In this document: one piece after another, positions 15,555 through 61,889 of the stretch
How positions within the stretch are numbered: position 1 is the stretch's first letter
How the letters are laid out: the number at the start of each line of letters is the position of its first letter
NCBI GenBank assembly: GCA_029667085.1
Contig: JARUHJ010000001.1
Coordinates: 1,054,001 to 1,118,000, forward strand
Source of the DNA: Deltaproteobacteria bacterium IMCC39524
GTDB lineage: Bacteria; Desulfobacterota; Desulfuromonadia; Desulfuromonadales; BM103
Direction: 5' to 3'
Length of the DNA stretch: 64,000 bases
Made by a program: the position numbers and the translations under genes
The notes under the pieces: model-generated
Told to the model about the DNA's origin: nothing
Database searches by the model: none
The model's input: only the letters and a program-made list of their open reading frames with translations

Positions 15555-16487
15555 TTAGGATCTGGCTTCACGTTGCAAAAAATAAGCGTTCAAGCTATAT
15601 CGCCAACCAGGGATATCTACTCCGGTCGCTGCTTTATATTTCTGTTTCTCAAAAACCGAATTAGCCGGTCGTTTCGCTGGCAAAGGATAGTCTTCGGTCG
15701 CTATAGGATGAATCTTTTGCACCTTAAGGGCCAAATTACGTTTTTGTGCTTCCTCGACGATTGCACAAGCAAATTCATACCAACTGCAGCGCCCTTCATT
15801 TGCAAAATGGTAGAGACCATAGAGACTGGATGTTGGAGATTTGGGGCTGGCAGAGGCTGCAAGCAAGCAGAAAACTGCATCGGCTAAATCAGCTGTATAA
15901 GTCGGCGAACCAAGCTGGTCAGAAATAATCCGAAGCTCTTCTCTCTCTGCGGCCAGACGCAGGATCGTTTCGACGAAATTGTTGCCACCCGGGCCGTAAA
16001 GCCAACTGGTTCTGACAATAAAATATTTTTCAAGGTCACTGTTGATGATAGCCTGTTCACCCACCAGCTTTGTGTTGCCATACACTGATTGTGGATTAGG
16101 CGCGTCACTCTCAACATAAGGAGTCGTCGCCTGTCCATCAAATACATAATCGGTCGAGATGTGAACCAGGGTCGCCTCAACGGCTAGAGCAGCCTCTACC
16201 AGGAAGCCAACCGCCGTGCCGTTAACAGACATAGCCAAGTCACGCTCGGTCTCAGCACCATCAACATTCGTAAATGCCGCACAATTGATAATGACGTCAG
16301 GAGCCAAAGAGCTCAACACATCAACAACTTGATATCGATCATTCAAGTCAAAATCAGGCAGATCAAACAGATGAAAATTACAATCTTGCGGCGCACGCTC
16401 ACGGATCATTCTTGCCAACATGCCATTCGCACCGATCAAAGCTATCTTACGGTGATCGGTTATCTGTGATTGGTGATCAGTCTGCAT
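15555..16487 (-). CDS. rfbD: dTDP-4-dehydrorhamnose reductase with repeat-derived segments
   Basis: About 310 residues from the ATG at 16487, preceded by AGAGGA. NADPH-dependent SDR-like reductase completing dTDP-L-rhamnose. [14 protein letters not shown] is the dinucleotide site; STDYVFDG and YGNTKLVGE carry the catalytic Thr/Tyr/Lys region. Residues 2-12 ([11 protein letters not shown]) come from a heptamer tract directly after the start codon, and a second tract at 15823-15850 encodes a Ser/Pro-rich loop (ASPKSPTSS) before LYGLYHFAN. The start overlaps the end of the four-helix protein gene by 11 bases. Confidence 0.95.
15823..15850. repeat. Heptamer tract inside rfbD
   Basis: Four units, AGACTGG, ATGTTGG, AGATTTG, GGGCTGG, encode a Ser/Pro-rich loop in RfbD. 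Confidence 0.75.
16451..16485. repeat. Heptamer tract at rfbD start
   Basis: Five units, GGTGATC, GGTTATC, TGTGATT, GGTGATC, AGTCTGC, lie immediately after the rfbD start codon on the minus strand and encode its first dozen residues. Confidence 0.8.
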
Positions 16488-24044: not shown

Positions 24045-25190
24045 CTAACTCAGTTTCCGATAAATATCTTCGAGAATGGTCGACTCATTCTCCCAGTTCA
24101 AAATCTTAGTTGCCGCGACGCTGTTCCGTTGCGCCTGGGACAGAACCTCGGGATGATCCAGATAACGATTGATGGCGACGGCCAGACTTTTCGGATCGTT
24201 GTTGCTAAAGGTACTGCCCAATTCATAGGTCTCTACCAACTGGGCCATTTCAGGCAAATCACTGACGATAGTCGCCAAACCTGCATGAATATATTCGAAA
24301 AGCTTGTTTGGCAGGCAGAGTTCATAGCTCTTACAGATCGGCTCAATCGGCGACACGCCAATATCAGCACTCGACGAGTAACCGAGTAGTACTGCAGGGG
24401 CCACAGCGGGGTGGAAAAACACACGGTCACAAAGTCCCATTTCTGTCACCTGAGCAATCACGTCCTGCTTGATATGCCCATCGCCCATGAAGACCAGTAC
24501 GCCGTTGTCTTTGACAAAAGGCATTGCAGAAACCAGGGTTTCAACGCCGCGCCCGGCGGCCACTGCCCCCTGATAGAGGATGATAGTCTTGTCAGCATCA
24601 ATGCAGAACTCCTTGCGGAAAAGGTCCTTCTTTTCGACCTTCGCTAGTTCGGGGATATTCCTGATCACATGCACCTTGTCGACGCCAAACTCCTCTTCCA
24701 AAACCTTGGCCACGTGGCCACCGACAGAAATATTGACATTCGCCCTGCGAGCGATAAAGCGCTGCATAAAAAGGGCGGGCTTTTTGATGCAATCGGGAAA
24801 CTTGATGATGCTGGAAGACCCGGACCAAAGCTCGTGAGAATCGTAAATCAGCTTAGCACCGGTGAATTTTGCCACGACATAACCAATCATAATCGCATTT
24901 AGATCATGCACATGCACGATATCCGGTTTAGAGCACAAGCCGCTGACGATCATACGCAGGAAAGCTTCAAAGTATTTCACCATCAGAATTAAATAATTCC
25001 GCCCCCAGTTTTTACTGACTAACGGGAACCTTTGTAGAGAATAGTTCTGCAGATTCTCCAGCTTGGGCAAACCATCACCGTAAAGAGCAAACACCTGCAC
25101 TTTAAAGCCAGCGTCACGACCGACCTTACAGGCGCGCAAGACTCTGGAGTCGTTTGTAAAATCATTTAATACGATGTGCAGAAGTTTCAT
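24045..25190 (-). CDS. GT4 glycosyltransferase
   Basis: A 381-residue GT-B protein from the ATG at 25190; an in-frame TTG at 25202 is less likely. The N-terminus MKLLHIVLNDFTNDSRVLRACKV and the HVHDLNAIMIGYV segment match the two paralogous GTs at 28879-30381 and 32305-33717, so the three may share ancestry. The C-terminal domain has ILYQGAVAAGRGVETLV and LCLPNKLFEYIHAGLATI. Sugar donor and acceptor are not predictable. Confidence 0.88.
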   Translation of the reverse strand: MKLLHIVLNDFTNDSRVLRACKVGRDAGFKVQVFALYGDGLPKLENLQNYSLQRFPLVSKNWGRNYLILMVKYFEAFLRMIVSGLCSKPDIVHVHDLNAIMIGYVVAKFTGAKLIYDSHELWSGSSSIIKFPDCIKKPALFMQRFIARRANVNISVGGHVAKVLEEEFGVDKVHVIRNIPELAKVEKKDLFRKEFCIDADKTIILYQGAVAAGRGVETLVSAMPFVKDNGVLVFMGDGHIKQDVIAQVTEMGLCDRVFFHPAVAPAVLLGYSSSADIGVSPIEPICKSYELCLPNKLFEYIHAGLATIVSDLPEMAQLVETYELGSTFSNNDPKSLAVAINRYLDHPEVLSQAQRNSVAATKILNWENESTILEDIYRKLS

Positions 25191-25208
25191 TCGTAAACCC
25201 AAGGAATC

Positions 25209-27062
25209 TTAGAGAAGGAGGTCTTCATCATCTTCAAGAACAATCGCTGCTGCTGACTTATCACTTTTCAAGCCAGTAATAATATCATTGAACAGATCAA
25301 CTCTATCTCTCAGAAATTGGTAGTCACCGATCCCAATAACATCCAGGTCACATCCGACAATGAATCTGCTGTCATCATTGTATATTTTGATTTTGTTTAA
25401 CACGGGAAACGTATTTGCCGTAAAGATGATTTTATAGCCTGCAAGCAAGGTTAAGTATTTATGGATAAATGGCTGCTCAAACGATGAAAACAGAGCGTAA
25501 TCAATGACAACAATTTCTTTTTTATATATAAAGACGTACGCACTTAACATCAGAAACAGTGCTTCTTTCCCGATCTTATCGACCAGTGAATCGTCTATGA
25601 ACTCATTCAAGTTTTCTTTTATTCGTTCTAAATCCAGAACATCTCTAAACTCTTCCAACAATTGCCATAGTTCATCAACTGCATCCTTGCCCTGATTCAG
25701 GCCAATTGAGTTTTCAAGCAAAGTCAATGTACTGACGAAATCGGACGAACCGTGGAAGTAGATATTGGAACCGAGACCTGCCCCCCCCTGATTTATGTTC
25801 TCTATAAGAAAACGTTTAATTTCAGGAGAAACCGGAGTAATTCTTGCGCCCGTCAAATGGAGTAGATAAGCAGGTTGCCCCACCACAAGTTCCAGTTGAG
25901 GCATAGAACCATCTATAAATAGTGAAGATTTGTCATTGACTGACAGAAGTTTTGGTTTTTCCTCATGCAAAGAATCCATAACACTCTGTCGTTCCGTCTC
26001 ACAGACAAACTCATGATAAACCCTGACCGTCGGATAGAAGCGGCTGACACCTACCGCAATCGTAACAACCTTCCTTAAGCTTGCTCCCGAATATCTTAAA
26101 GCAATCAAAAACACCAGAATTGAAGTCCAGGACTCCGGATTACTCTCTATCGTCGATCCAAAAAGGAGAAAGAGCCAAACCATACTAATGGTAATGAATA
26201 TCTGACTGACATAATTACTTCTTTGAGCAACGAGCATCCTTTCATAAAAAAGGCTCAGTACACTATCAACATTACTCGCATCAATAATCTTACCAATTGT
26301 CGCCTTGTCGTAATTTGGGTTTCCATTGCCCATCAAGAGCTCATATGTTTTGGTGAGTTCTCTGTTCAAAGAGGAAAATCCCGTCACATACGCACCCTGA
26401 ATCACAGTTGACTTCTTGCTGATCAAATAGACTAACGCCATATAAATTAAAGCAACAGGCACAATAGATAAGGTGGCCAGGAAATAGAGTTTGATGAGGA
26501 GGGCCAATGAGACTAAAAAAATTAAAATCGGCTGAATAGCCTCCATGAGAAGCTTTAGAGAGACGGCCAAATAATTTGTATAGACAGTTGCAACGTGTCG
26601 GTGATCATGCTGTGGAGCCAGAAATTTGATACGCGAACTCAAATCGGTTCGGCGTGTAGCAAAATCTACAACACTGACTGCGCGAACCATTGCCTCTTTG
26701 TGAAAAGCTGCAGAAAGTGTATAAACACCTTTTTGCGACCAAAAGACGCAGTAAGCGCTCAAAACACCAAGAACAAGTGCCGCCCCCCCATAAAATAGTA
26801 GACCCTCAAGTCCATCAGGAACAGGGACGGAGTACCCTCGAAAAGCAAATTCTTTGCCGGATATTTGATAACGGGCGTATCCGATAAGAACCGCAAATGA
26901 TGCTGCGACAGTACCAACGCCTAAGAAATTAGCCGTAAAAACCCAAAAAAAAGCTCTCTTTCTACCTTCGAGACCTTCCTTAAGAATCCAAACCGCAGTG
27001 TTCAAGAAGTTTTGTACGCCACCAAATGTCTTCTTAGCTTTACTATGGAAACCATGCACCAT
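25209..27062 (-). CDS. Polytopic protein resembling an ABC exporter with dead ATPase domain
   Basis: 617 residues. Residues about 35-330 contain six hydrophobic helices with long cytoplasmic extensions, in the pattern of an ABC exporter transmembrane domain. Residues about 370-600 follow the order of an ABC nucleotide-binding domain but without its catalytic motifs. Where Walker A should be, the sequence reads GQPAYLLHLTGARIT with no GKS/T. A TLLENSIGL segment fits the Q-loop area. The ABC signature LSGGQ is absent. EIVVIDYALFSSFEQPF sits at Walker B without DE, and IIFTANT at the switch strand. The C-terminus is acidic. Lies between GT genes in an AT-rich region. Could be a glycan transport or assembly scaffold (inference). 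Confidence 0.55.
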   Translation of the reverse strand: MVHGFHSKAKKTFGGVQNFLNTAVWILKEGLEGRKRAFFWVFTANFLGVGTVAASFAVLIGYARYQISGKEFAFRGYSVPVPDGLEGLLFYGGAALVLGVLSAYCVFWSQKGVYTLSAAFHKEAMVRAVSVVDFATRRTDLSSRIKFLAPQHDHRHVATVYTNYLAVSLKLLMEAIQPILIFLVSLALLIKLYFLATLSIVPVALIYMALVYLISKKSTVIQGAYVTGFSSLNRELTKTYELLMGNGNPNYDKATIGKIIDASNVDSVLSLFYERMLVAQRSNYVSQIFITISMVWLFLLFGSTIESNPESWTSILVFLIALRYSGASLRKVVTIAVGVSRFYPTVRVYHEFVCETERQSVMDSLHEEKPKLLSVNDKSSLFIDGSMPQLELVVGQPAYLLHLTGARITPVSPEIKRFLIENINQGGAGLGSNIYFHGSSDFVSTLTLLENSIGLNQGKDAVDELWQLLEEFRDVLDLERIKENLNEFIDDSLVDKIGKEALFLMLSAYVFIYKKEIVVIDYALFSSFEQPFIHKYLTLLAGYKIIFTANTFPVLNKIKIYNDDSRFIVGCDLDVIGIGDYQFLRDRVDLFNDIITGLKSDKSAAAIVLEDDEDLLL

Positions 27063-27112
27063 TAAGTTCTACCTATTAGAAAACCACTGTAAGTCGTGGT
27101 ATGGCTCATTGA

Positions 27113-28861
27113 CTATAAAAGAAGATTAAGCCTCTTTCTTGCCTTCATAGAAATAGCATCAGAGATAATTTGACGCGCTTCAAAGTCTGACTTTGGTTCT
27201 TCCGCCCATAAATGAGATCTGAATAGTATTAAAAAGTTTCTGCCATTCGTACTGATTTTTTCTGGATACTCAAACGTCTCTGTTGCCTCATCAGTGAATC
27301 GCCCACCAGAAAATTCCAAAAATGATTTTCCACCTGGACCTTCTACCAATATACTGTCTGGCCTGTAGCTAAATATTTTCTCAAAAATATCAACTTTATT
27401 TTCGTATATTTTTGACGCCCATATTTCACTGTCAGAGTTTTCATCCAGCTTAACCCTAAGTCCAACGTTATGTTTCATAATGCGAATATTTTTTATAGAA
27501 TTTATGTTGTCCTCGGTTGCCAAATTATAAAAAGAAGAATCAACATCAAAAAAGAAAGTGCAGGTTCTATTATTTTCCAAAAGCACAGATGCCAACTGGT
27601 GGGAAGATTCCACATCGTAATCAGCGATGCATGCAATAGACATATGTGCCCACCTTTGGGATGATTGAGCTAAGAACTCTTCTAAATAATCATATGCAAA
27701 CATTGACCGGTCTTCAGGCTGTGGCAAAGCCTGAAACATTCCAGACGGATGCCAAGCGCCTTCAGAAGTAATACCCTCTAAAGTGGATAGAATTTCATTG
27801 CCGATCTTAATGGAAGCCTCTCCATCACCAAAAAGACCCACGGGTTTACCTAGCGGTATTTTGAAATTTTCCAATGCACTCAAAATATCGCTTTCCCCAC
27901 CAGGAATAACTTTGCACCAACCACTTTCCACGATTTCATTCCAACCTGAGTTCGGAAGAGGGACAATCGCCGGTCGACCGCCAAAAAAGGCTTCACGTGC
28001 CAACCCCCCGGAATCAGTAAAGCAAAGGGAACAAGCATCAAGCATTGATAAAATGTCAAAATAACCAAGGGGCTCGATCAACTTCAAACTCCCAGATGGC
28101 TCCCAATTCTTCTCCTTTAATATATTCCTAACCCTTGGATGTAGAGGCAAAACCACATCAATATCTGCATTATCTAATGCTCTTAATATTTCATCTAGTC
28201 GCCTAAATTCAGCCGTATTTTCGTTTCTGTGAATTGTTGCTAATATATAATCTCCTGTAATTCCAAAGTCACTAGGCTTGGCATAACTTCCACTTTCAAT
28301 TTGTTTTTTCCCCCAGCAAAACAAATCATACATAGGGTCACCGACCCATCGAACCCTTTCAGGATTATAGCCTTCCCTCATTAGATAGCGATAAGCCTTT
28401 TCAGTTGAGGTTAAACACTTCCAGGCCAACTCATCAGTAACTATTCGATTGACTTCCTCTGGAGCTAGATTTCTTCTGTAATTTCGTTCTCCAGCCTCAA
28501 CATGAAATAATGGGATATGCAGATGAGATGCAACCAGCGCAGCCGCTATTGTTGAATTAGTATCACCATAAACCATGACCGCATCCGGTGCCTGCTCCTC
28601 CATAATATGTCTCAATTTAGGCAACATCGCACCAATCTGGTCTACAATCGCACCTGAGCCCATTTGCAAATTTACATCAGGGTCTGACAAGCCAAGTTGC
28701 TCGAAAAAAACATCACTCAACATTTTGTCATAATGCTGCCCGGTATGAACAAAATATGTATTAATCTTTTTATCAAGACCGCTCTTTTTCCAAAGTTTAT
28801 TAACAATTGCGGCTTTGATAAATTGAGGTCTGTTTCCAACAACAACAATTATTTTTTTCAT
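27113..28861 (-). CDS. wbpI: UDP-HexNAc 2-epimerase (WecB/WbpI-like) with extra C-terminal domain
   Basis: 582 residues, about 200 more than ordinary WecB/WbpI enzymes. Residues 1 to about 375 are a complete GT-B-fold 2-epimerase (VGNRPQFIKAAI, HTGQHYDKMLSD, VYGDTNSTIAAALVA, HVEAGERNYRRNLAPEEVNR). With WbpA, B, E and D in the same region it would complete UDP-ManNAc3NAcA synthesis. The remaining residues resemble a polysaccharide-deacetylase (NodB) barrel: IADYDVESSHQLASVLL, TFFFDVDSSFYNL, MKHNVGLRVKLD match the order of RxDVD, TFFF...FYNL and GHEIGLHYD in that family, but the metal His residues look replaced. The fusion is unusual and its role unknown. Confidence 0.85.
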   Translation of the reverse strand: MKKIIVVVGNRPQFIKAAIVNKLWKKSGLDKKINTYFVHTGQHYDKMLSDVFFEQLGLSDPDVNLQMGSGAIVDQIGAMLPKLRHIMEEQAPDAVMVYGDTNSTIAAALVASHLHIPLFHVEAGERNYRRNLAPEEVNRIVTDELAWKCLTSTEKAYRYLMREGYNPERVRWVGDPMYDLFCWGKKQIESGSYAKPSDFGITGDYILATIHRNENTAEFRRLDEILRALDNADIDVVLPLHPRVRNILKEKNWEPSGSLKLIEPLGYFDILSMLDACSLCFTDSGGLAREAFFGGRPAIVPLPNSGWNEIVESGWCKVIPGGESDILSALENFKIPLGKPVGLFGDGEASIKIGNEILSTLEGITSEGAWHPSGMFQALPQPEDRSMFAYDYLEEFLAQSSQRWAHMSIACIADYDVESSHQLASVLLENNRTCTFFFDVDSSFYNLATEDNINSIKNIRIMKHNVGLRVKLDENSDSEIWASKIYENKVDIFEKIFSYRPDSILVEGPGGKSFLEFSGGRFTDEATETFEYPEKISTNGRNFLILFRSHLWAEEPKSDFEARQIISDAISMKARKRLNLLL

Positions 28862-28878
28862 AAGTCACTCAATAAAAG

Positions 28879-30381
28879 TCAAATGAAGCTTTTATATAAT
28901 TCCAACAATTTACCTTCTTGGGCATCCCAAGAGTAGAAATCTTCTAACTTCTTTCGAGTTTTATCGTTTAATAAATAGGTCTTCCTATCTTTAACAATTC
29001 TTGTAATTGTTTTCGCAATACTCTCTGGATCAGTCTGATCCATCTTTAATCCGAGACTAAGAGATTCTACAAAACAAGTCATCTCCGGAAGGTCAGATAC
29101 ACACATTGGCAAACCAGCAAAGGCCATTTCAAACAATTTATTTGGCAGCGCATATCGATGATTCAAAGACACATCCTGAAAAGGGCAGATACCAACATCG
29201 CAGGTCGCTACAAATTGGGGGACATCTTTAGCTGGGACAGGATCAAGAAGATGGACCCTATCGCCTACAGAAAATTTCTCAGCAACCTTCAAAAGCCAAC
29301 TATCATGGTCTTCCCGGCGAGGACCAACAACTGCTAAATGAGTATTAGGGATATAAGTCAATGCCTCCACAACCTTATGAAGGCCACGTGACTCTGTCCC
29401 CATAGCGCCTACGTAACCAACCAGAGGAATGCCGTTTGGAAGAGAACAAGAACTTCTGATATCTCCACTATCCAAAGGTTTCTTCTGCCTATCGTCGACC
29501 GAACGACCACGCAAATCGGGAGAATTCATTATCGTTACAGGCTGTTTTTTCTTAAATAGATCAAAGTGATAGTCTGATGAAGAGTCGCATACAGCTATCA
29601 TTTCATCGACTTCAGGAAATAATGACTTTTCTAAATCCAATATGAACTTTTTCTTTTTTCCCCCATCGTCAGTAGGAGCTCTTTCAGCTTCAATTTCATG
29701 CGCATCAAACACGACCTTAGCCCCACAGCGACGAGCCAGGCCTATTGCAGCAGGGAGAGTAAACAAGTCATGTGCATGTATAACATCAGGAGAAATTTCG
29801 AAATCAAGGGATAGAAAATCATATGCATACTGATAGTATCTAAAAAAGAATAAATTATTATTTCTCCGCTCTCTATATTCTTTTATACCATCAACATATT
29901 CTTTCTTATAATTATTTAAATCTCTTAATTCATTTGTAAGATCATATTTTTTATCGAAAAACCGCCTAAACAACCTGAATATTTTTTTATGCTTGTTCTT
30001 GTTTTGACGTGTGCTTAAAATTAACTCTCTAGTCAAATCCATATTTTCTCTTGCACTATAAGCATTTTTTCTCTTCGAATAGACTGATGTCAGCTCATTT
30101 GCTAAAAACGCCTGATCATCGCCAAACAAAGACAAAACCTCATCATTCAACTCATAGTCTTTATCTTCGAAAGTAGGAAATCTTTTATATACAACATCAT
30201 CTAGAATATTTTCATCAGGGGCATCTCCAATCAATCTGGCATACACACGTACATTATGTCCCTGCCGGGCAAGAGTATTTGCTTCCTTTATCACCCTTAC
30301 ATCGTTCATACAATTATTGACTACCAAGCAGAAAATATTTAATTTTCTATTTTCATCATTTACAACGCTTCCGTTCAACAA
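28879..30381 (-). CDS. GT4 glycosyltransferase, AT-rich
   Basis: A 500-residue GT-B protein. N-terminus NIFCLVVNNCMNDVRVIKEANTLA, central DVIHAHDLFTLPAAIGLARR, and C-terminal domain with VGYVGAMGTESRGLHKVVEAL and YALPNKLFEMAFAGLPMCV. It carries a charged helical insert (about 85-180) rich in Lys, Arg and Asn. It is closely similar in architecture to the protein at 32305-33717. Codon use is visibly more AT-rich than the flanking housekeeping genes, suggesting transfer. A start a few residues downstream is possible. Confidence 0.88.
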   Translation of the reverse strand: MLNGSVVNDENRKLNIFCLVVNNCMNDVRVIKEANTLARQGHNVRVYARLIGDAPDENILDDVVYKRFPTFEDKDYELNDEVLSLFGDDQAFLANELTSVYSKRKNAYSARENMDLTRELILSTRQNKNKHKKIFRLFRRFFDKKYDLTNELRDLNNYKKEYVDGIKEYRERRNNNLFFFRYYQYAYDFLSLDFEISPDVIHAHDLFTLPAAIGLARRCGAKVVFDAHEIEAERAPTDDGGKKKKFILDLEKSLFPEVDEMIAVCDSSSDYHFDLFKKKQPVTIMNSPDLRGRSVDDRQKKPLDSGDIRSSCSLPNGIPLVGYVGAMGTESRGLHKVVEALTYIPNTHLAVVGPRREDHDSWLLKVAEKFSVGDRVHLLDPVPAKDVPQFVATCDVGICPFQDVSLNHRYALPNKLFEMAFAGLPMCVSDLPEMTCFVESLSLGLKMDQTDPESIAKTITRIVKDRKTYLLNDKTRKKLEDFYSWDAQEGKLLELYKSFI

Positions 30382-30431
30382 AACCTCCCCAAAAAGTTCT
30401 ATATTAGATGATATTTCAAATGATAATATGG

Positions 30432-31355
30432 CTAAAGTTGTCTTTTTAAGACACCACTAGCCCAAGACAAGCCAACCCCAAAACCACTAATAACGATATT
30501 TTTCACAGAAGCATCCGCGAACTCATCCTGCAAAAGAATAGGTATTGTCGATGCACAACTATTTCCATAATCACCAATGGAAAAAGGGACCTTGGACAGA
30601 TGCACCCCTAATTTACTTGCTATTTTCTCAACGATGACTTTACTGCCTTGATGAAGTAGATATTTATCAATCTCCTCCAAACTCAAGCCATTTTTTTCCA
30701 ACATCGTCAAGATATCCGGCGGTACAGTCTTAGCCGCAAAATTAAAAACCGCACGGCCATTCATGTACAAATACTTTTCTTTAACAATAAGATTGTTGTA
30801 ATCCTCACCTCTTGTGCCAAAAGTAAAAAGACCTGGAACAAAAACCGGATCAGTGGTGATATAAGTCGCGGCAGCCGCATCGCCAAACAACAACGCCGTC
30901 CCCTTATCCTCCTGGTTGACAACCTTTGAATATGGGTCGGCTGTTATCAGTAAACCCTTCGTAAAACCATTTACCACCATAAAAGCCTGAATAACTGACA
31001 AGGCGTAAACGAACCCGGAGCAGCCTAACGAGATATCAAAACATGCACAGTTGGCAGGCAGTCCAAGTCGGCCATGCACCAATGCCGAGGTATGGGGTAT
31101 CTGATAATCAGGATTTTGCGTCACGACTATCAACGCTTCGATCTCAGACGCGTTTACTGCACTGCGTTCCAACAGATTCTCATAGGCCTTAATACATATA
31201 TCGGCAGTATTTTCGTCTGCCGCCATCTGCGCAACCTTCTTTATGCCTGTCTTCTGCTCAATAAAATTATCATCGATGGAAAATTGTTTTTTTCTCCCAT
31301 AATTGTCTATCCGTGTTTCGGGTATATAGACGCCTACATCTTTAATTCCTAGCAT
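30432..31355 (-). CDS. 3-oxoacyl-ACP synthase III family protein
   Basis: A 307-residue FabH-like condensing enzyme with an intact catalytic triad: Cys112 in FDISLGCSGFVYAL, His235 in LLHQGSK and Asn265 in GDYGNSCAST. Members in glycan clusters are thought to make short acyl or 3-hydroxyacyl precursors for sugar acylation (family-level inference). The LpxD-like N-acyltransferase gene lies 27 bases upstream in the same direction, strengthening that idea. No ketoreductase or dedicated ACP is adjacent. An ordinary fatty acid synthesis FabH is less likely given the context. Confidence 0.9.
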   Translation of the reverse strand: MLGIKDVGVYIPETRIDNYGRKKQFSIDDNFIEQKTGIKKVAQMAADENTADICIKAYENLLERSAVNASEIEALIVVTQNPDYQIPHTSALVHGRLGLPANCACFDISLGCSGFVYALSVIQAFMVVNGFTKGLLITADPYSKVVNQEDKGTALLFGDAAAATYITTDPVFVPGLFTFGTRGEDYNNLIVKEKYLYMNGRAVFNFAAKTVPPDILTMLEKNGLSLEEIDKYLLHQGSKVIVEKIASKLGVHLSKVPFSIGDYGNSCASTIPILLQDEFADASVKNIVISGFGVGLSWASGVLKRQL

Positions 31356-31382
31356 AGATATCCCACCTCTGAGAGCTAAGAC

Positions 31383-32303
31383 CTACTTCTTAGGTCGCAT
31401 AATTGAACGGAAATTTTTCACAAACAGACTATGATCCACAGCAAAGTTTCCAGTAACGGTCGCTCCCTCCGGAACATCTCTGGCCACAACCGCCCCAATG
31501 GTCACCGAAGCACCTGCTCCGATCGACAGACCGTTCGAAACGGTTGAGTTCGGGCCAAGATAAGCTTTATCACCAAGGGTTACACGACCGCTTAGCATCG
31601 AACAGGCTGCCATTTTCACACCCTCACCGAGGATGCAATCATGGGCCACATGAACATTATTATCGAAGGAACAATAATCCCCGATTTCTGTAAAAACCGC
31701 AAAAGTGCTTCGAGCAATTGTGACCCCCCCCAAGAAGACCCCCCCTCTGCCGATCCTTACTCCCCCAGCCTGCTTTAAAAGTTGAGGCGTGCCATCAATT
31801 GTAGAAATTTCATAGGCGTCGGTTCCGATTACAGTATTGGGGCCAACAATGCTGTTCTCCCCTATCACCGAGCGGGGCATAATAGTGGCGTTTGGCCCTA
31901 CAACAACGCCATCACCAATTACAACATCGTGATCAGCGACATAGGCTGTTGGATGAATCTCGGCAGAACCTGCTATTTTCGAAGGGAAAGATGCCCAGTA
32001 ATAATCATCCTCAAGGCAAAGAGCGGCATGGATTTTATAGGCAACCTGAACAGGCTCATCGGCCACGGCACACCCCAGGCCCTCCGGAACTTTATCGACT
32101 AGTTCAGCTGTGCAGATAACCCCGGAGATACTATCGATATTATTGTTGAGCTCTCTGAGATACCTGCCATTGGTAAAGGGGACTAACTTTCGCGATATCA
32201 TTGTAGGCATCTTGCCCACGCAGAAGAACTCGCAATCACGCTCAATGTTTGCAAAATAAGTCGCAAAACCACTTAACTTTTTTTCTGAATTAGCAGCAAA
32301 CAT
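31383..32303 (-). CDS. LpxD-like sugar N-acyltransferase
   Basis: 306 residues from the ATG at 32303, one base after the stop of the upstream GT, with GGGAGGG inside that gene's 3' end as ribosome-binding site. An N-terminal domain of about 110 residues is followed by a long left-handed beta-helix of hexapeptide repeats, with NNVHVAHDCILGEGV carrying the catalytic His. This resembles LpxD, but the position in an O-antigen-type region next to a KAS III gene suggests acylation of a nucleotide amino sugar rather than lipid A. Acyl chain unknown. Confidence 0.85.
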   Translation of the reverse strand: MFAANSEKKLSGFATYFANIERDCEFFCVGKMPTMISRKLVPFTNGRYLRELNNNIDSISGVICTAELVDKVPEGLGCAVADEPVQVAYKIHAALCLEDDYYWASFPSKIAGSAEIHPTAYVADHDVVIGDGVVVGPNATIMPRSVIGENSIVGPNTVIGTDAYEISTIDGTPQLLKQAGGVRIGRGGVFLGGVTIARSTFAVFTEIGDYCSFDNNVHVAHDCILGEGVKMAACSMLSGRVTLGDKAYLGPNSTVSNGLSIGAGASVTIGAVVARDVPEGATVTGNFAVDHSLFVKNFRSIMRPKK

Positions 32304-32304
32304 C

Positions 32305-33717
32305 TTACCCTCCCATCGCAATATTCTTATACAAACCCAGCAACTTATCTGCCTGAATCGGCCAACTGTATTCGGATTGAAGCACATCCCTATTTTCCTG
32401 TGTTATGACAAACTTCTCGCGATCCTTCAAAACAGCACGAACCGTCTCCGCTATAGAGCTCGGGCTGGTCTGATCCATAATCATGCCGACACCAAGTTTC
32501 TCGACGAATTTGGACATCTCAGGAAGGTCGGACACACAGATCGGTATCTCAGCAAAAGCCATCTCAAACAACTTATTGGGCATGGCGAACCGATAACTGA
32601 GGGTCGCGTCCTGAATCGGACATATTCCGACATCACATGTCCTGATGGCAGCGACAACGTGTTCGGGCGGTACGGGCTTCAACATATGCACCCGATCCTG
32701 TACCTTTGACCTGATCGCTGCATTTTTCAACCACTTGTCATAGGTTATATGGCGTGGTCCGAGCACCACCATATGCATATCGGGGAGTTTGGCCAAAGCT
32801 TCAACAACCTTATCCAGGCCTCGTGCTTCGGTACCTATCCCGCCAGTATAGATGAGCACTTTGTCATCATCACTCAAACCGGCCATCTTCCGCACATCAC
32901 AGTCCTCGCCATAATCGATAGTTTCTGAAAATTCAGGAGAATTCATAACGACGAGGGGTTTAGATTTTTTGAAAATTTCATAGTAGAAGTCTGCCGCGGA
33001 ATCGCAGACAGTAACCATTCTATCGACTTCTGTAAGCAGTGAGGCCTCCATAGAGGCAATAAAATCTTTCTTCTCTTTCGTCAATGGCGGGACACGCTCG
33101 GTTTCAATCTCATGGGCATCATAAATAACCTTGACCTTAAACTTGCGCCCCAGCGCAATGGCTGCGGGCAATGTATAAAGGTCATGGGCATGAATTATGT
33201 CTGGAGCAGTATCGAAATCGAGCGACATGAGATTTTCAGCATAGTCGAAATACCTCAAGTAAAACCTCGACTCTATGGCTTTTAGCTTGGCTTTATCGGT
33301 GATCTTGTTCGTTGTGGTTGAGGGCTTTTTATTCCTGCCCAACAGATTGACAAGGCGAGAATAGAAATGTTTTTTTATTCGTACATAGATTTTATACTTA
33401 AGATCGTAAACCACATTTTTGTATGCGCTCATCTCTTGCAAAAGAGATTCTATTTTGTTTTTTTCAGGACCAAAAACGTCCAGCACCTCAGCCCTGAGTG
33501 GTGTGTTAACATTTCTGAACGCTTTAAAGCAGTCGAAACGGACAAACTCGATACCATCGACCACTTCCCTGTCGGGAACCTTATCGGCCGCTCGTGCATA
33601 GATACGCACCCTGTAGCCGGCCGAAGCTAGCGCCCCAGCCTGCTTCAGCACTCTGGAATCAGCAGTGCAAGGGTTTGAGACGAGAGAAAAAATTGTCAGA
33701 TCAGAATTGTTAGACAT
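32305..33717 (-). CDS. GT4 glycosyltransferase, paralogue of 28879-30381
   Basis: A 470-residue GT-B protein with N-terminus TIFSLVSNPCTADSRVLKQAG, DIIHAHDLYTLPAAIALGRK, VKVIYDAHEIE, and C-terminal LIYTGGIGTEARGLDKVVEAL and MPNKLFEMAFAEIPICV. It shares these blocks and the same internal helical insert with the protein at 28879-30381, so the two are paralogues flanking the KAS III/LpxD-like pair. GC content is more normal than in its partner. The gene is coupled to the LpxD-like gene. Confidence 0.9.
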   Translation of the reverse strand: MSNNSDLTIFSLVSNPCTADSRVLKQAGALASAGYRVRIYARAADKVPDREVVDGIEFVRFDCFKAFRNVNTPLRAEVLDVFGPEKNKIESLLQEMSAYKNVVYDLKYKIYVRIKKHFYSRLVNLLGRNKKPSTTTNKITDKAKLKAIESRFYLRYFDYAENLMSLDFDTAPDIIHAHDLYTLPAAIALGRKFKVKVIYDAHEIETERVPPLTKEKKDFIASMEASLLTEVDRMVTVCDSAADFYYEIFKKSKPLVVMNSPEFSETIDYGEDCDVRKMAGLSDDDKVLIYTGGIGTEARGLDKVVEALAKLPDMHMVVLGPRHITYDKWLKNAAIRSKVQDRVHMLKPVPPEHVVAAIRTCDVGICPIQDATLSYRFAMPNKLFEMAFAEIPICVSDLPEMSKFVEKLGVGMIMDQTSPSSIAETVRAVLKDREKFVITQENRDVLQSEYSWPIQADKLLGLYKNIAMGG

Positions 33718-33764
33718 TTACAGGCTCTACCTCTTGAATAAAATGACTACTCATAAAATGGTCA

Positions 33765-34925
33765 TTAAGTTCGAAATCTCTCACTTCTTATTTCTTTAAT
33801 TTTCGCTGCGACTATCTGGACATCAGAATCAGGTATATATGGATACATGGGCAGACTTACAATCTGTTGTGAAACTTTCTCTGAAACAGGAAAATCACCT
33901 TCGGAATAACCCAGAACCTTATACGCCGTCTGTAAATGTAACGGTTTCGGATAGTAGACTGCCGTCGGTATCCCTCGCTCATCCAATTTTTTCTGTAGAT
34001 CATCCCGATTTTCAATAACAATTGAATACTGAGCCCAGGCACTTCCATACCCTTCGGGAACGTGAGGCGTCACGACTCCCGGAACCTCTGATAAAAGCTC
34101 CGTGTATTTATCCGCCACCCGCTGTCGTGCTTCAATCTCATCGGGAAATATTTCCAGCTTCGGTAACAAAACAGCCGCCTGAATCGTATCCAGACGACCA
34201 TTGATACCGATACACACGTTGTCGTACTTGTCCTTACCCTTACCATGTACCCGGATCGAGCACATGGTTTCAGCCAATTCGTCATCGTCAGTAAAAATAG
34301 CTCCGCCATCGCCATAACAACCCAACGGTTTAGCTGGAAAAAAGCTTGTTGTAGCAACATCGGCAAGGCTTCCAGCCCTACGTCCCTTATAAACACCACC
34401 AAACCCCTGCGCTGCATCTTCCAAAACGAACAGGTCGTGTTTACGGGCAATAGCATTGATCGCATCGTAATCGGCTGGTAGCCCGAACAGGTCGACGGGA
34501 ATGATGCCTCTAGGAACTAGAGGTTGTTCGATGTTCATTTTTCGTTGTTCGAGGTTGGTTATTGCTTCATCAAGTTTCTGCGGATCGATATTGAAAGTTC
34601 TGGGATCGATATCGACGAATACCGGAGTCGCACCAAGTAACGAAATCACTTCGCCGGTAGCAACAAAGGTGAATGGCGTCGTAAAGATCGCATCCCCTGG
34701 CCCGACACCATAGGCCATCAAAGCCATCAGCAGCGCATCGGTTCCATTGGCGACACCGATGCAATGCTTAACACCAGTGAACTCGGCAAGTAGTGATTCA
34801 AGCTCACCAACTTCCGGGCCCATGATGTACTGACCATGATCCAACACCTTCTGAATCGCTGCATCAATTTGTGGTCTGATCAGTTTCTGTTGAGCTTTAA
34901 GATCTATAAAATTTATTTTTTCCAT
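33765..34925 (-). CDS. wbpE: Sugar aminotransferase (WbpE-like) with repeat-derived loop
   Basis: 386 residues from the ATG at 34925, chosen for the AGGA upstream and the family-like start MEKINFIDLKAQ. A DegT/DnrJ-type PLP enzyme: GTDALLMALMAYGVGPGD, EDAAQGFGG and the Lys in SFFPAKPLGCYGDGGAIF. In the Wbp pathway it aminates C3 of UDP-3-keto-GlcNAcA. A 42-base period-7 tract at 34522-34563 encodes TNLEQRKMNIEQP, an extra loop before GIIPVDLFGLPAD. Confidence 0.93.
   Translation of the reverse strand: MEKINFIDLKAQQKLIRPQIDAAIQKVLDHGQYIMGPEVGELESLLAEFTGVKHCIGVANGTDALLMALMAYGVGPGDAIFTTPFTFVATGEVISLLGATPVFVDIDPRTFNIDPQKLDEAITNLEQRKMNIEQPLVPRGIIPVDLFGLPADYDAINAIARKHDLFVLEDAAQGFGGVYKGRRAGSLADVATTSFFPAKPLGCYGDGGAIFTDDDELAETMCSIRVHGKGKDKYDNVCIGINGRLDTIQAAVLLPKLEIFPDEIEARQRVADKYTELLSEVPGVVTPHVPEGYGSAWAQYSIVIENRDDLQKKLDERGIPTAVYYPKPLHLQTAYKVLGYSEGDFPVSEKVSQQIVSLPMYPYIPDSDVQIVAAKIKEIRSERFRT
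34522..34563. repeat. Heptamer tract inside wbpE
   Basis: Six units: GGTTGTT, CGATGTT, CATTTTT, CGTTGTT, CGAGGTT, GGTTATT. Diverged but in exact 7-base register; encodes an additional loop of the aminotransferase. Confidence 0.75.
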
Positions 34926-34951
34926 AAGAATCATTCCTAGTAATTTCAATG

Positions 34952-36805
34952 TCACATATTTAGTTTTGGTCTATACAAACACTGAACTTCTTTTCGTAAT
35001 GGGCTTATAACTTCGCCAATATAAATGTAGTCTTCAGAAAAATGGATATTAAAATCATTAAGTATTGATTCTGACACATGTCTACGTCCTTGAGGTGAAG
35101 TTAAAACCCACGCCCTTTCTAACACCTCATTCGCAACGAAACTAAGTAAACTTCCAACATAAGCATTTGACCCGGGATAACCACCTATTAACCACGGCGC
35201 ACCAGGAGTCATCGCCCCGAGGATATAGGCCGCTCCGGGACTGCCGCCGGTTAAATCAATCAGGGGGGTATCAATGACCCATCCAGAACTTTGTGCCACC
35301 TCTTTTAGTGTATTCACATAATTGCTTGTACTGGAATCAACATAAATTACTGAAGCAGCTCTTCCAACGGTCACCATTTCAGTTTGTTCTACAATAGGTG
35401 CGCATCTATATGGGTTCGAAAATGCGCCTTGAAAAATCAAGAGGACACTCACAGCGACAACACAGCAATAAACCTGAGATACGACAGACCGAGAATTCAT
35501 CTTTCCAACAATAAGGGTAAGGCATAGGGCTGCTGATACAAAAAAAACAAACCCTCCAGAAGCATGACGTAGCAGGCCGGTATTGGACCCAAATGCATAA
35601 GCAAATGGGCCCAACATTATACAAGTAATTACCCATATCAGATTTATTGAATATGATTTGCAGATTTGAATGTTTGGGTAACCCCGAATACTGTAAAGCG
35701 CTACCGATACGACTGTTGTAAGAACTAAAAGAATACCAGCTATACCGAGATACCGACCATAGTCAACTCCACCTGACCAGAAATCAGCTTGCAATCCACC
35801 CCACCAAACGAACACAAATATACAAACAATAGAAAAGTCTTTTACAGAGTTTCTAAACCTTTCTGGGATCAAGCAAATGACCAAGACAATCAGAGCTAAG
35901 ATTCCCCACCACATACCGTGAATCTTGTAAATACGAAAAGGAATCGACATGATATCAGCAAAGGAACGAGATACTAAAGAGCCAAAGTCATTTCCACCGC
36001 CGATAATATGAATTAGATCAAGCCCATTTTGAATTTTAATAATAAAGGTACTGAGTCCCTGTTCGAAAAAAAGAATATGAAGACAAAAAAAAGAGATTAG
36101 AGAAATACCAGAGATCACAACAAACCTAAATATTCTTTTGCGATTACTTGAAGACAAGACCCAAACAAAACCAACGACAGACAGCATAGCGGATGTTGTA
36201 GGCTTAGCCATAAATGCCAACCCCACACTTAAACCAAAGACAATACTTCCACAGAAAAATAACTGTCCCCGTTGAGTGGTACGATCAGTAACAGAGGTGT
36301 TAAGTAAAGTCGTTAGCAGAAGGCCCGAATAGGCTAATAGACATGAAACAAGAGCCAGCCAGTTATACCCTGGAGTTGGTAACCACCAAGCGTAGAAGCA
36401 TAATGCGGCCAGAAGGGTTGTACAGATTCGAGAAAATTTGATTAACAAACCATCCCGAGTGACTAAATCTTCAAAAAAGACAAATTCAAGGATTATCGAG
36501 TATAGCGTTGTAATTATTATCAATAAGAGTAGACCAAGCAACCTAAAGGAGTCGAGGTCACCATCAACTAAAGAGTAAAGGATACCGGTGTAAAAACCAA
36601 ACTGGGAAACAGAAGCAACCAGAGTCGAGGGTGATCCTGCCGAAAGCAGGTAAAGAGATTCATCAGTAATATCTAACCCACGGTCCAGATTAATGATTAA
36701 CTTTGAAACCAAATAAAGAAAGGTAAGGATGGGAATAATCGCAAGGAAATTGCCAAGGCTGCTCGGGCCAGCTAAAGAAAACTTATTCCAGTGTGAAATT
36801 TTCAT
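34952..36805 (-). CDS. GT-C-like polytopic membrane protein
   Basis: A 617-residue protein with about 11-13 hydrophobic helices and a soluble C-terminal region of about 130 residues. After the first helix, LDRGLDITDESLYLL gives the acidic Asp-x-x-Asp-Glu motif seen in the first periplasmic loop of GT-C lipid-linked glycosyltransferases. This suggests a polyprenyl-phosphate-sugar-dependent transferase; an O-antigen-like polymerase is an alternative. Base composition is AT-rich like other variable genes here. Family call tentative. Confidence 0.6.
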   Translation of the reverse strand: MKISHWNKFSLAGPSSLGNFLAIIPILTFLYLVSKLIINLDRGLDITDESLYLLSAGSPSTLVASVSQFGFYTGILYSLVDGDLDSFRLLGLLLLIIITTLYSIILEFVFFEDLVTRDGLLIKFSRICTTLLAALCFYAWWLPTPGYNWLALVSCLLAYSGLLLTTLLNTSVTDRTTQRGQLFFCGSIVFGLSVGLAFMAKPTTSAMLSVVGFVWVLSSSNRKRIFRFVVISGISLISFFCLHILFFEQGLSTFIIKIQNGLDLIHIIGGGNDFGSLVSRSFADIMSIPFRIYKIHGMWWGILALIVLVICLIPERFRNSVKDFSIVCIFVFVWWGGLQADFWSGGVDYGRYLGIAGILLVLTTVVSVALYSIRGYPNIQICKSYSINLIWVITCIMLGPFAYAFGSNTGLLRHASGGFVFFVSAALCLTLIVGKMNSRSVVSQVYCCVVAVSVLLIFQGAFSNPYRCAPIVEQTEMVTVGRAASVIYVDSSTSNYVNTLKEVAQSSGWVIDTPLIDLTGGSPGAAYILGAMTPGAPWLIGGYPGSNAYVGSLLSFVANEVLERAWVLTSPQGRRHVSESILNDFNIHFSEDYIYIGEVISPLRKEVQCLYRPKLNM

Positions 36806-37575: not shown

Positions 37576-37598
37576 ATAACTACCTCTTCATAGGCACT

Positions 37599-38603
<1,005 letters not shown>

Positions 38604-46532: not shown

Positions 46533-47228
46533 TCAGGTTTGATAGCCAAAGAGCTTGAAATCATCTGCATATCGCCTGCAAATCAGTTCCCTCGTCTCGA
46601 CGTTCATTTCGGGAAGAGCCTTCTTGCTGCTGACGTTGATTTGCGGTGGAGGCGCAAGTTTGAAACGCCTCTGCAGTTCCTGCCAATCTTCATTCAACTG
46701 CTCGAGTTTCCCAACGAAAGCGGGCAGAAGGCTGTTCTGCCATGTGAGGAACCAGGCTTGCGAGCGAAAGTGCCGATCTGATTTATCATCAGGCAGGGTT
46801 GCGACCAGGCGAACAAAATCTTCGAAGGACATATCGAGTGCAACACCATGTTTTTCAAATATATTGCGGCCGCCATAATTCCTGACATCTTCGATCTTGT
46901 TCTTGTAGCAAGAGTAAATCCTGTCATAAGGGTTACGGACAAAAGCGAAGAGAAAATATTGATCAGACAACTTTGCAATCTGCTCTTGTTGCAGGTGTCT
47001 TGCATAACGAGTCTCGTATTCTCTTACCAGCTTCTTGGCAAAATTCTGGTCGGGAATGGATCCGGAGACATGGGCGGTTACAGCGACACGGATCGAACGA
47101 CTGGCCACCTTGGGGATCTGTATATAACCAAATTTATGCTCCGGGAAAAGATAGAGTTGTGGTTTTTCTCGTCCCAGTTTACGGCGTTTATTCCAGAGCC
47201 TCAGCTGATGTGAAATCTGCAAACTCAC
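46533..47228 (-). CDS. Sulfotransferase (Sulfotransfer_2 type)
   Basis: A 231-residue PAPS-dependent carbohydrate sulfotransferase. IPKVASRSI at 38-46 is the 5'-phosphosulfate-binding loop and FVRNPYDRIYSCY at about 96-108 the 3'-phosphate-binding motif, in the order of the family. No signal peptide, so it acts in the cytoplasm, probably on a lipid-linked or nucleotide glycan. The GTG at 47228 lies immediately after AGGAG; an in-frame TTG two codons later has better spacing. It links the PAPS genes to the LPS locus. Confidence 0.85.
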   Translation of the reverse strand: MSLQISHQLRLWNKRRKLGREKPQLYLFPEHKFGYIQIPKVASRSIRVAVTAHVSGSIPDQNFAKKLVREYETRYARHLQQEQIAKLSDQYFLFAFVRNPYDRIYSCYKNKIEDVRNYGGRNIFEKHGVALDMSFEDFVRLVATLPDDKSDRHFRSQAWFLTWQNSLLPAFVGKLEQLNEDWQELQRRFKLAPPPQINVSSKKALPEMNVETRELICRRYADDFKLFGYQT

Positions 47229-51433: not shown

Positions 51434-52279
51434 TCACTCATATTTGGTCAGGCCATCGTCAACCATGGCAACGCCGAGATGTTGCAAAAGATTCTTAACA
51501 CCATCGTTGCTAACAATCCTTTGTTTTTGATCCTTACTCAAAAATTCTTTCCAGCGACAATCAAAATGCTTTATTTTTTTCTGATTGACCCATTCGTATT
51601 CAGACTTTGTTGAACCATGGTGAATAAAATTCCAATAATCAGCTTGTCCTTCTTCGTAGCTGCAACCCATCCATTCCATGAGATTAGAGAGAGTCTGCTC
51701 TTCATGTTTAACCAAATCATGATACGTGACGTTATAGACATCGAGCTGATTCTTCGCAATAAAATCAATGATGGTCTGGTTTTGCTTGAGCCATTTGCCG
51801 ACGTAAATATCGAGGCTGTCGCCCAATAAAGCCTTCTTTAAATTTCTTCCTGAGTGCTTTACAAGCTTGAAACGTTCCCTGAATATGGACCTGTTTTCAT
51901 CGAGGAGCCAACGCCGCACAAGGGCACGTGGATCCCGAACCAGGTGGATAAATTTCTTTTCGTACCTTTGATCCGTGAGGAATTTTTCCGCCCAGAATAT
52001 TTTCTTGGAGGTGTCGATCAAGCCATCAATATCAGGGCCGACGTTGGAGAAGATCAACTCATAAACATTCTCAACATTCTCGGGTGAAAGACCTGAAAGC
52101 ACCGGACATCGCGCATGTCCCTGACAAAACCCGCACAAAGACCTGGCGCTGTCTGTGTTAATTTTTCTGAGCCATTTGATCTCACCAATATGCTGGAAAC
52201 GAGAATGACTTCCCAACATTAAAGAAAGGAAGTGAGAGCCAGAAAAATTTGACGACATGATATAGATTATCTTCTTCAT
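51434..52279 (-). CDS. Sulfotransferase family protein
   Basis: 281 residues with a P-loop-like SSNFSGSHFLSLML at 9-22 (5'-phosphosulfate site) and HLVRDPRALVRRW near 131 (3'-phosphate site), the standard PAPS sulfotransferase arrangement. A CGFCQGHARCP segment at about 47-57 may bind a metal or form disulfides. No membrane segment. It lies one base after the upstream kinase gene, so the two are coupled. Substrate unknown; probably a core or surface sugar. Confidence 0.82.
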   Translation of the reverse strand: MKKIIYIMSSNFSGSHFLSLMLGSHSRFQHIGEIKWLRKINTDSARSLCGFCQGHARCPVLSGLSPENVENVYELIFSNVGPDIDGLIDTSKKIFWAEKFLTDQRYEKKFIHLVRDPRALVRRWLLDENRSIFRERFKLVKHSGRNLKKALLGDSLDIYVGKWLKQNQTIIDFIAKNQLDVYNVTYHDLVKHEEQTLSNLMEWMGCSYEEGQADYWNFIHHGSTKSEYEWVNQKKIKHFDCRWKEFLSKDQKQRIVSNDGVKNLLQHLGVAMVDDGLTKYE

Positions 52280-59498: not shown

Positions 59499-60147
59499 AT
59501 TGGTTCAAATACTCTCCGGCGTGACGCGTGTTGGCATCCATGGCTTCTTGTACCCTGGACTGGAAATCTTCAATGGACTCATTTTCATCATAATAGAGAG
59601 GTTCACCAACTGCATAAACAGCCTTTCCCCAGGGGTACGGCAGAAGAAACCGGTCCCATGACTGAAACCTATGGCCATGGCTGCAAGCAAAGGCAAGTGG
59701 CACAATCGGCCGTCCAGACAATCGCGCCAACTGAACAACCCCCTCTTTAAGCCGATGACGTGGTCCGGTTGGCCCGTCCGGAGTAATACCCAAAGTACAG
59801 GGCTCTTTCGAGAGTCGTACCAATTCCCGGAAAGCAGCTCGCCCGCCTCTGTTTGAGGAGCCACGGACAGTCTCTAAACCAAAATAACTGATGACCCTTG
59901 TAATCAGCTCACCATCCTTGGACTTGCTGATTAAGACTTTCGCAGCGCCACCTTCGTAGCGCGGAGAAATCAGCAGGAGCTGGTCATGCCAGGTGGCGAT
60001 AATAACATGTTGCCCCTCAGACCAGATCAGTTTCAACCGCTCTTCGCCAACCGTCTCAGGTTTCAGAAGAAGATAAATAAGTTTAATCAACTTGGCCGCT
60101 AGCCAGGGTGTCGTACTGAGTAGAATTCTGTCCCCGAAAGACGGCAT
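59479..60147 (-). CDS. Lysophospholipid acyltransferase family protein (DUF374)
   Basis: 222 residues. IIATWHDQLLLISPRY contains the HxxxxD-like acyltransferase pair (H-D-Q), ISKSKDGELITRVISYFGLETVRGSSNRGG is the acceptor region and LGITPDGPTGPRHRLKEGVVQLARL the characteristic DUF374 stretch. The family frequently sits beside waaA and msbA and is thought to acylate lipid A or a phospholipid; substrate unproven. It overlaps msbA by one base. Confidence 0.92.
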   Translation of the reverse strand: MPSFGDRILLSTTPWLAAKLIKLIYLLLKPETVGEERLKLIWSEGQHVIIATWHDQLLLISPRYEGGAAKVLISKSKDGELITRVISYFGLETVRGSSNRGGRAAFRELVRLSKEPCTLGITPDGPTGPRHRLKEGVVQLARLSGRPIVPLAFACSHGHRFQSWDRFLLPYPWGKAVYAVGEPLYYDENESIEDFQSRVQEAMDANTRHAGEYLNQYDLSAV

Positions 60148-61889
60148 CAGACAGTCTCAAATTGCATATCGTAAAGATTGCGATAAAGGCCGCCCTGGGC
60201 AAGCAACTCCTGATGATTGCCAACCTGAACAACCCTGCCCTGCTCCATAACCACAATCCTGTCTGCATGCATGATGGTTGACAAACGATGCGCAATAACC
60301 AGGGTCGTACGATTTTTCATCAGGTTGCCGAGCGCCTTTTGCACCATAGCTTCGCTTTCAGTATCCAGGGCGCTGGTCGCTTCATCGAGGATCAGAACAG
60401 GGGCATCTTTAAGCAAGGCCCGCGCAACACAAAGACGTTGCCGCTGACCTCCTGAAAGACGAACACCACGATCACCGATTAAGGTGTCATATCCTTCAGG
60501 CAGCTTGTTGATGAAATCGGTGGCATAAGCCTGCTCTGCCGCGTCGGCCACGGCTTGTGCGTCGGCATCCTGCTTGCCGTAGCGAATATTGTCGAGAACC
60601 GAGCCACTGAAAAGAAATGTTTCCTGATCGACAAAAGCAAGGTTCTTCTTAAGGCTCTCCAGTGAAATATCACGGATATCGTAACCATCAATTTTGACGG
60701 AGCCCTGCTGCGGATCGTAGAAACGCGCCATCAAGCCTGCCACAGTTGATTTACCAGCGCCACTGGGACCGACCAGGGCAATCACTTCACCCGGGTTCGC
60801 ATGAAGGCTGAAATCCGTCAGAACGGCTTCATCGCCGTAGCTGAAAGTAACATTATCAAAAACAATTTCACCACGTGCGCGTTCGATTTCTATCGCTTCC
60901 GGCTTGTCCACGACATCACGAGGCTCATCCAGCAGAGTAAATACACCCTCGGCAGCACCAATCGATTTCTGGATAATATTACTGACCCGGGTCAGACGCT
61001 TAACAGGGGTAAACATCATCAAAATTGCGGCAACAATTGAGAAGAGCTGACCCTGGCTTAAGTCGCCAGAAAGGACCCTATGGACACCGTACCAGATCAC
61101 ACCACTACCACCAAGGGCAGCCAAAATTTCTACTGCAGGCGCAGTCAAAGAGTTGTACTTGATCGCTTTGCGCAAGTATTTATAATATTGCTTATTCTCT
61201 GTTTTAAATTCCTGGATCTGGGTTTCTTCCTGGCCGAAAGCTTTGATAACTTTTATGCCGCTGAAAGACTCCTGCAAGGTGCCGGTCAGGAAACCCATGC
61301 GTTTAAGGCCACTTTTCGTATTATTTCTGATTCGCCGACCAAGTTGTGTCGCCGGAATCACACAGAAGGGCATGACCGAAAAAGCGACTGAAGCCAGTCT
61401 CCAGTCTTTATAAAAAGCCAGCGTGATTAATCCGATCAGGGTGAAGCTCTCACGGACACCATCCACCAGAATATCAGCGGCCGATCTTTGCAATATGCCA
61501 ACATCATTGAGAACTCTCGAGGTAATAACTCCCGGGGGCTGATTGACATGGAACCCCATCGACAGATGCATCGATTGGCTGAAGAGGTCATTACGAATAT
61601 CCTGGACCGCCAGTTGGCCGGCCGTTTTGATATAATACTCCTGATAAAAACGTCCAACGCCCTTGGAAACAGCCAGGCCGATAATCACAACAGGAACGAG
61701 GTAGGCCAAATCAGTGTTTTTGGCGGTAATGATCTTGTCTACCAAGGGTTCAATCAGGTTGATATAAGCCACGTCGGAACCGGCGACAACCAGAGAAAAG
61801 ATCAGGGAGAGCACAATACGCCACATATAGGGTCTGGAATACTGGACGACTCTTAGGTAAATCTGTTTTTTGGTCATTTGACTCTTCAT
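60147..61889 (-). CDS. msbA: Lipid A flippase/ABC exporter MsbA
   Basis: A 580-residue half-transporter: six transmembrane helices (to about 320) and an ATPase domain with GPSGAGKST (Walker A), LSGGQRQRLCVARALL (signature), VLILDEATSALD (Walker B) and VIAHRLSTI (switch His). Length and place between lpxB and waaA fit MsbA, which flips core-lipid A to the periplasmic leaflet. Its intact motifs contrast with the protein at 25209-27062. Confidence 0.95.
   Translation of the reverse strand: MKSQMTKKQIYLRVVQYSRPYMWRIVLSLIFSLVVAGSDVAYINLIEPLVDKIITAKNTDLAYLVPVVIIGLAVSKGVGRFYQEYYIKTAGQLAVQDIRNDLFSQSMHLSMGFHVNQPPGVITSRVLNDVGILQRSAADILVDGVRESFTLIGLITLAFYKDWRLASVAFSVMPFCVIPATQLGRRIRNNTKSGLKRMGFLTGTLQESFSGIKVIKAFGQEETQIQEFKTENKQYYKYLRKAIKYNSLTAPAVEILAALGGSGVIWYGVHRVLSGDLSQGQLFSIVAAILMMFTPVKRLTRVSNIIQKSIGAAEGVFTLLDEPRDVVDKPEAIEIERARGEIVFDNVTFSYGDEAVLTDFSLHANPGEVIALVGPSGAGKSTVAGLMARFYDPQQGSVKIDGYDIRDISLESLKKNLAFVDQETFLFSGSVLDNIRYGKQDADAQAVADAAEQAYATDFINKLPEGYDTLIGDRGVRLSGGQRQRLCVARALLKDAPVLILDEATSALDTESEAMVQKALGNLMKNRTTLVIAHRLSTIMHADRIVVMEQGRVVQVGNHQELLAQGGLYRNLYDMQFETV

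Follow-up and report, generated by a model that had tools for sequence, protein, structure and literature searches.

An ancient family of motif-less ABC exporter descendants encoded in bacterial surface-glycan gene clusters

The gene under study lies on the minus strand at 25209..27062 of the window, by which we mean the whole 64,000-nucleotide stretch of DNA that was analysed. It is flanked by glycan genes, and an intact exporter gene farther along the window served as a control outside the family described below. The features are as follows.

24045..25202, minus strand: GT4 glycosyltransferase, the next gene downstream after a 6 bp gap (Pfam PF13692, PF13439, PF00534)
25209..27062, minus strand: pseudo-ABC exporter gene, 617 aa; intact open reading frame without catalytic ABC motifs, whose family profile matches ABC exporters
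25212..25244, minus strand: acidic C-terminal tail IVLEDDEDLLL, residues 607-617, paralleled in all relatives with a known C-terminal end
25263..25925, minus strand: C-terminal domain, residues 380-600, a degenerate nucleotide-binding domain (NBD) with no Walker A or signature (family C-terminal columns against the NBD profile)
25500..25514, minus strand: remnant Walker B strand IVVID, residues 517-521, with Tyr, not Glu, as the next residue
26007..26957, minus strand: transmembrane region, residues 36-352, with a six-helix ABC exporter layout (hydropathy; family transmembrane domain, TMD, against the ABC profile)
26040..26129, minus strand: most conserved stretch of the family, at the end of the last helix, from W312 to R341 and including L322-R323; SRFYP runs to residue 344 (conservation count, eight relatives)
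27113..28861, minus strand: UDP-GlcNAc 2-epimerase of the WecB/WbpI type, the next gene upstream (Pfam PF02350, E 8.5e-77)
28879..30381, minus strand: GT4 glycosyltransferase (Pfam)
46533..47228, minus strand: sulfotransferase in the same wider glycan region, ~20 kb away (Pfam PF03567, E 4e-26)
51434..52279, minus strand: sulfotransferase in the same wider glycan region, ~25 kb away (Pfam PF13469, E 2e-8)
60147..61889, minus strand: intact MsbA-type ABC exporter retaining Walker A, LSGGQ and Walker B (PF00664, E 2.6e-48)

The reading frame starts with ATG and runs for 617 codons free of stops and frameshifts, with coding-like codon-position GC in both halves of the gene. Hydropathy segments at residues 36-65, 83-110, 163-221 (a double segment), 282-308 and 311-333 fit six helices followed by a soluble C-terminal half of ~260 residues. 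A pattern scan of the entire protein found no GxxxxGK[ST], no [hydrophobic]SGG and no hhhhDE string, while a Walker-B-like strand is retained with its Asp (IVVID). An earlier, sequence-only reading had described an intact gene with this layout among glycan genes, and both points are borne out, the flanking genes encoding a glycosyltransferase and an epimerase. Its description of the motif loss stands for Walker A, LSGGQ and the catalytic Glu and needs correction for the Walker B Asp, which persists.

On its own, the window protein had no match in Pfam or NCBIfam, including the Wzx/MATE flippase families PF01943 and PF13440, which were equally unmatched in its relatives, and its matches to PDB sequences were noise only. 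Against ABC profiles it gave a weak TMD signal and no NBD signal, and the C-terminal half alone scored no better against the NBD profile than shuffled sequence. Single-sequence AlphaFold models gave no fold support for the whole protein (pLDDT 37), and the model of the C-terminal domain (pLDDT 40, pTM 0.42) found no match in a fold search. The single sequence was thus insufficient to prove an ABC assignment, and relatives were needed.

The wider cluster has features of its own. The neighbouring epimerase (27113-28861) carries a 205-aa C-terminal extension (residues ~378-582) with no Pfam match even at E 10, which by eye recalls a degenerate NodB polysaccharide deacetylase (IACIADYD...CTFFFDVDS). 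From sequence reading, with the epimerase alone tested, a pathway of the UDP-ManNAc3NAcA type seems to be encoded on the minus strand at 27113-40131, comprising a dehydrogenase (38788), a WbpB-like oxidoreductase (37599), a hexapeptide acetyltransferase (36910), an aminotransferase (33765) and the epimerase (27113). Within the cluster lies a FabH-like ketoacyl-ACP synthase III gene (30432-31355, minus strand; PF08541/PF08545), adjoined by an LpxD-like hexapeptide transferase gene (31383-32387); the synthase may supply some sugar with an unusual acyl group. The cluster also encodes a 617-aa multi-helix membrane protein (34952-36805, minus strand), which has no significant Pfam or NCBIfam match and is possibly a GT-C transferase or polymerase. 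Between 40532 and 52279, sequence reading recognised CysD, CysN/CysC-like, APS-kinase-like and CysQ-like ORFs, which together with the two sulfotransferases suggest a sulfated surface glycan. GC content is 38-41% at 25209-30381 and 34952-36805 versus 47% for the whole window, and none of the other sampled genomes from the source genus has the pseudo-ABC gene; together these point to horizontal acquisition.

Searches of ~1,995 genomes in total, in overlapping sets all from one phylum, identified relatives of the window protein in six other genomes of that phylum. Among 277 genomes of its own class, the sole relative was an N-terminal fragment in genome G118 (35% identity over 113 residues), located in a glycan cluster that also encodes Wzx and WecB. 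This cut-off copy (locus L069, 9296-9832) is flanked by transposase-like ORFs (7057-7929 and 15660-16181), and the remaining part of the gene was not found in the G118 genome. A 389-genome sample of another class yielded full-length relatives in G850, G663 and G799, and searching the order of G850 with a profile brought in relatives from G719 and G943. The long members measure 614 (L091), 604 (L077), 573 (L081), 550 (L092) and 538 (L078) residues; L079, at 362 residues, ends after the TMD, lacking the NBD and keeping the acidic end, and L080 and L093 probably belong to a single gene divided between two contigs, one half on each. Pairwise TMD identity among members is 13-28%. Two of the genomes hold two divergent members each (L077 and L078 in G850; L079 and L080/L093 in G663), making hetero-oligomers inside the family conceivable.

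Several candidates were set aside. A match in G059 ran antisense across an OmpH/Skp-like gene, other weak matches that were opened for inspection looked unrelated (e.g. a branched-chain permease and DXS-like proteins), and matches in G188, G659 and G1056, with further ones from the phylum search, were intact exporters. Two scans of genome contigs and one of viral contigs returned no relative, and plasmid and phage searches were also empty. We found no description of the family in the open-access literature.

With the relatives in hand, descent from ABC exporters became apparent. A family profile built from eight relatives aligned in collinear order with a profile of 39 intact exporters over its full length, TMD through C-terminus (HHalign probability 98.4%, P 5e-15). 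The TMD alone matched with P 2.6e-11 and the C-terminal half matched the NBD profile with P 2e-5; for each of these three comparisons, 0 of 30 column shuffles (block-wise for the two halves) did as well, and the family TMD gave no match to the NBD profile. Individual members agree with this result: L077, L079, L081 and L091 match the exporter HMM with E 1e-7 to 1e-10, and L081 matches PF00664 in register (E 4e-4), under the curated cut-off. Even as a single sequence, L091 hits the NBD profile (E 2e-5), in an alignment spanning the signature helix, the H-loop strand and a Walker B strand that reads VVIIDQ, where Asp-Gln takes the Walker B position; it also matches NCBIfam MsbA models in the NBD register. 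The top PDB matches for the family were BmrA, TM288 and MsbA. By profile comparison the family thus has the six-helix TMD of type I/IV exporters, and the C-terminal NBD is present only as a degenerate remnant that is absent in L079. Computation from sequence profiles shows the family to be ABC exporters of type I/IV by descent, and we regard its identity as an ancient pseudo-ABC family as highly probable. The resemblance to ABC exporters proposed by the sequence-only reading is therefore upheld by profile comparison and drew no support from structure prediction or fold search.

The loss of the ATPase is common to the whole family. In a pattern scan, no member had Walker A or an LSGG signature, and a hhhhDE string occurred in the L093 half only. 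From later searches with the family HMM, 16 non-member locus entries ranking below the family were inspected, or 14 after removal of two duplicates; all of them have Walker A and all but one have the signature by the pattern used. In an IQ-TREE phylogeny of the TMDs of the family and 28 intact exporters, the family formed one side of a branch with support 100/100; several branches are long, and the tree supports the family as a unit but no particular order within it. On this computational evidence the ATPase was lost once, ancestrally. Conservation of the motif loss in homologues, which the earlier reading had offered as a check, is confirmed, and simple decay of a single gene, which close homologues with intact motifs would have indicated, is rejected since the homologues are equally motif-less and form one clade.

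What persists is uneven along the protein. The degenerate domain shrinks across the family as the proteins shorten from 617 to 538 residues. The most conserved residues all lie at the last helix and its cytosolic end: among eight relatives, W312 and R341 are conserved in 8/8, L322, R323 and Y343 in 7/8, and P344 and R348 in 6/8. The last 20 residues contain 4-10 acidic residues in every member with a known end, including L079, compared to a mean of 2.7 in the 39 intact exporters. A conservation count found no conserved acidic residue within the transmembrane helices that could carry protons, and three mainly acidic columns (29, 83 and 161) fall outside or at the edge of predicted helices. The computations show a previously unassigned family that kept its membrane domain, a variably decayed NBD and an acidic tail through deep divergence. 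Walker A, the signature and the catalytic Glu are needed for ATP-driven ABC transport; with all of them missing, it is not credible that the protein by itself carries out ATP-driven transport, and we infer that it works without ATP hydrolysis.

Glycan clusters surround the gene at all informative family loci. At nearly all loci its neighbours are glycosyltransferases, NDP-sugar epimerases and aminotransferases, and L077, at a contig end, adjoins a CysQ-like gene. Pfam-supported sulfotransferases occur at L078, L079, L081 and L092, with a weak match at L091, and none was seen at the L069 and L093 loci. Sulfotransferase HMMs built from family-locus proteins gave one weak match among 15 intact-exporter loci, a comparison that is partly circular and only suggestive. 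A Wzx-type flippase gene lies directly downstream of the family gene at L092 and L069, which argues against the family protein as the sole flippase there. In the window cluster we recognised no Wzx, and both PF01943 genes of this genome are far from it, leaving room for a transport role. A role in glycan assembly, as put forward by the earlier reading, fits these neighbourhoods; the sensing role that it named as an alternative drew no support.

These observations bear differently on what the protein might do. If the gene were a vanishing pseudogene, left by decay of an ordinary exporter's ATPase in the source lineage, this could account for its absence from the other genomes sampled in its genus and for the lone fragment near transposase-like genes in G118. 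However, frames are open in several genera despite the low TMD identity, all members are motif-less and in one clade, and an unselected 1.8-kb frame is not expected to stay open across such distances; we give this reading only the slightest chance for the window gene, and for the family as a whole the comparisons already refute it. The protein could instead be the dead half of a heterodimer in which an active ABC half-transporter supplies ATP hydrolysis, as degenerate nucleotide-binding sites are common among heterodimeric exporters (PMC7756269). Yet known degenerate sites keep most motifs, whereas here Walker A and the signature are gone and the NBD dwindles to nothing in L079. No other ABC gene was present in the fetched family loci: NBD-profile matches there came from L091 itself only, and in the window from MsbA only, ~33 kb away. 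A distant active partner is possible, but the source genome has two other clear PF00664 proteins and one below the cut-off, and we consider a dead heterodimer half improbable.

The protein could also be an ATP-independent transporter, its ABC-type membrane domain flipping a lipid-linked glycan with the proton gradient or downstream polymerisation as the driving force. The TMD is kept by every long member, Wzx was not seen in the window cluster, the ABC exporters PglK and Wzk are able to flip lipid-linked glycans (PMC5395944, PMC4990322), and SLiPT proteins provide a precedent for an exporter TMD without an NBD (PMC13316013). Against it, the transmembrane helices have no conserved acidic residues resembling the glutamate ladder, Wzx is adjacent at two loci, and the NBD remnant and tail would be superfluous for a purely secondary transporter. 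We regard this reading as rather unlikely. Given the motif loss, the lack of a counterpart to the glutamate ladder and the lack of an active partner nearby, we favour a glycan-lipid-binding scaffold, with the ATP-independent flippase second; this functional assignment is tentative.

As a scaffold, the family protein would form the usual exporter-type dimer and perform no ATP-driven transport. Its six-helix cavity may still hold a lipid-linked glycan or its lipid carrier, while the cytosolic remnant and acidic tail would dock glycosyltransferases or modifying enzymes such as sulfotransferases, making it an ATP-independent site of binding and assembly, not a pump. Taken as a whole, the explanation that combines ABC-exporter descent, a single loss of the ATPase and a glycan-lipid-binding scaffold falls just short of an even chance. 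Evenly balanced, in our judgment, is the broader proposal that ATP hydrolysis was given up once, long ago, that the exporter body became either a glycan-lipid-binding assembly platform or an ATP-independent flippase, that the acidic tail recruits glycan-modifying enzymes and that the NBD has been shrinking from nearly full length to absent.

ABC exporters are textbook ATP-driven pumps; what we describe seems to be no single broken gene but a long-established, functional family whose activity consumes no ATP. The family may offer a way to test the capabilities of an ABC membrane domain by itself, and it represents an unannotated component of clusters for surface glycans, possibly sulfated ones. 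The sequence-only reading called this a new kind of component, which is fair, with the qualification that SbmA and BacA already show an exporter fold working without an ATPase (PMC13316013).

With type I/IV exporters of the MsbA, BmrA and PglK kind (PF00664 plus PF00005), the family shares a collinear six-helix TMD and C-terminal domain in a full-length profile match, along with remnants of the Walker B strand and signature helix; it differs in having no Walker A, LSGGQ or catalytic Glu, a shortened or lost NBD, an acidic tail and a clade of its own. The lipid-linked glycan flippases PglK and Wzk have both the exporter architecture and the glycan setting in common with the family, which is by motif content incapable of ATP hydrolysis. 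Degenerate-site heterodimers such as TM287/288, TAP and CFTR likewise keep an impaired NBD under selection, but there one site is active and ATP binds, whereas the family has lost every motif and lacks a nearby gene for an active partner; in such heterodimers the degenerate sites keep binding ATP and require an active partner (PMC7756269). The nearest precedent is provided by the SLiPT peptide transporters SbmA and BacA (PF05992), in which an exporter-type TMD runs on the proton gradient with no ATPase (PMC13316013), as the family has an exporter-type TMD without a functional one. Neither the window protein nor its relatives match PF05992, most members keep an NBD remnant, and with no conserved transmembrane glutamates they have no counterpart to the glutamate ladder; SbmA and BacA take up peptides, whereas the family belongs to glycan clusters. 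In SbmA the fold has been re-energised and the NBD is simply missing, while in this family a dead NBD shrinks as the membrane part stays conserved together with a new acidic tail.
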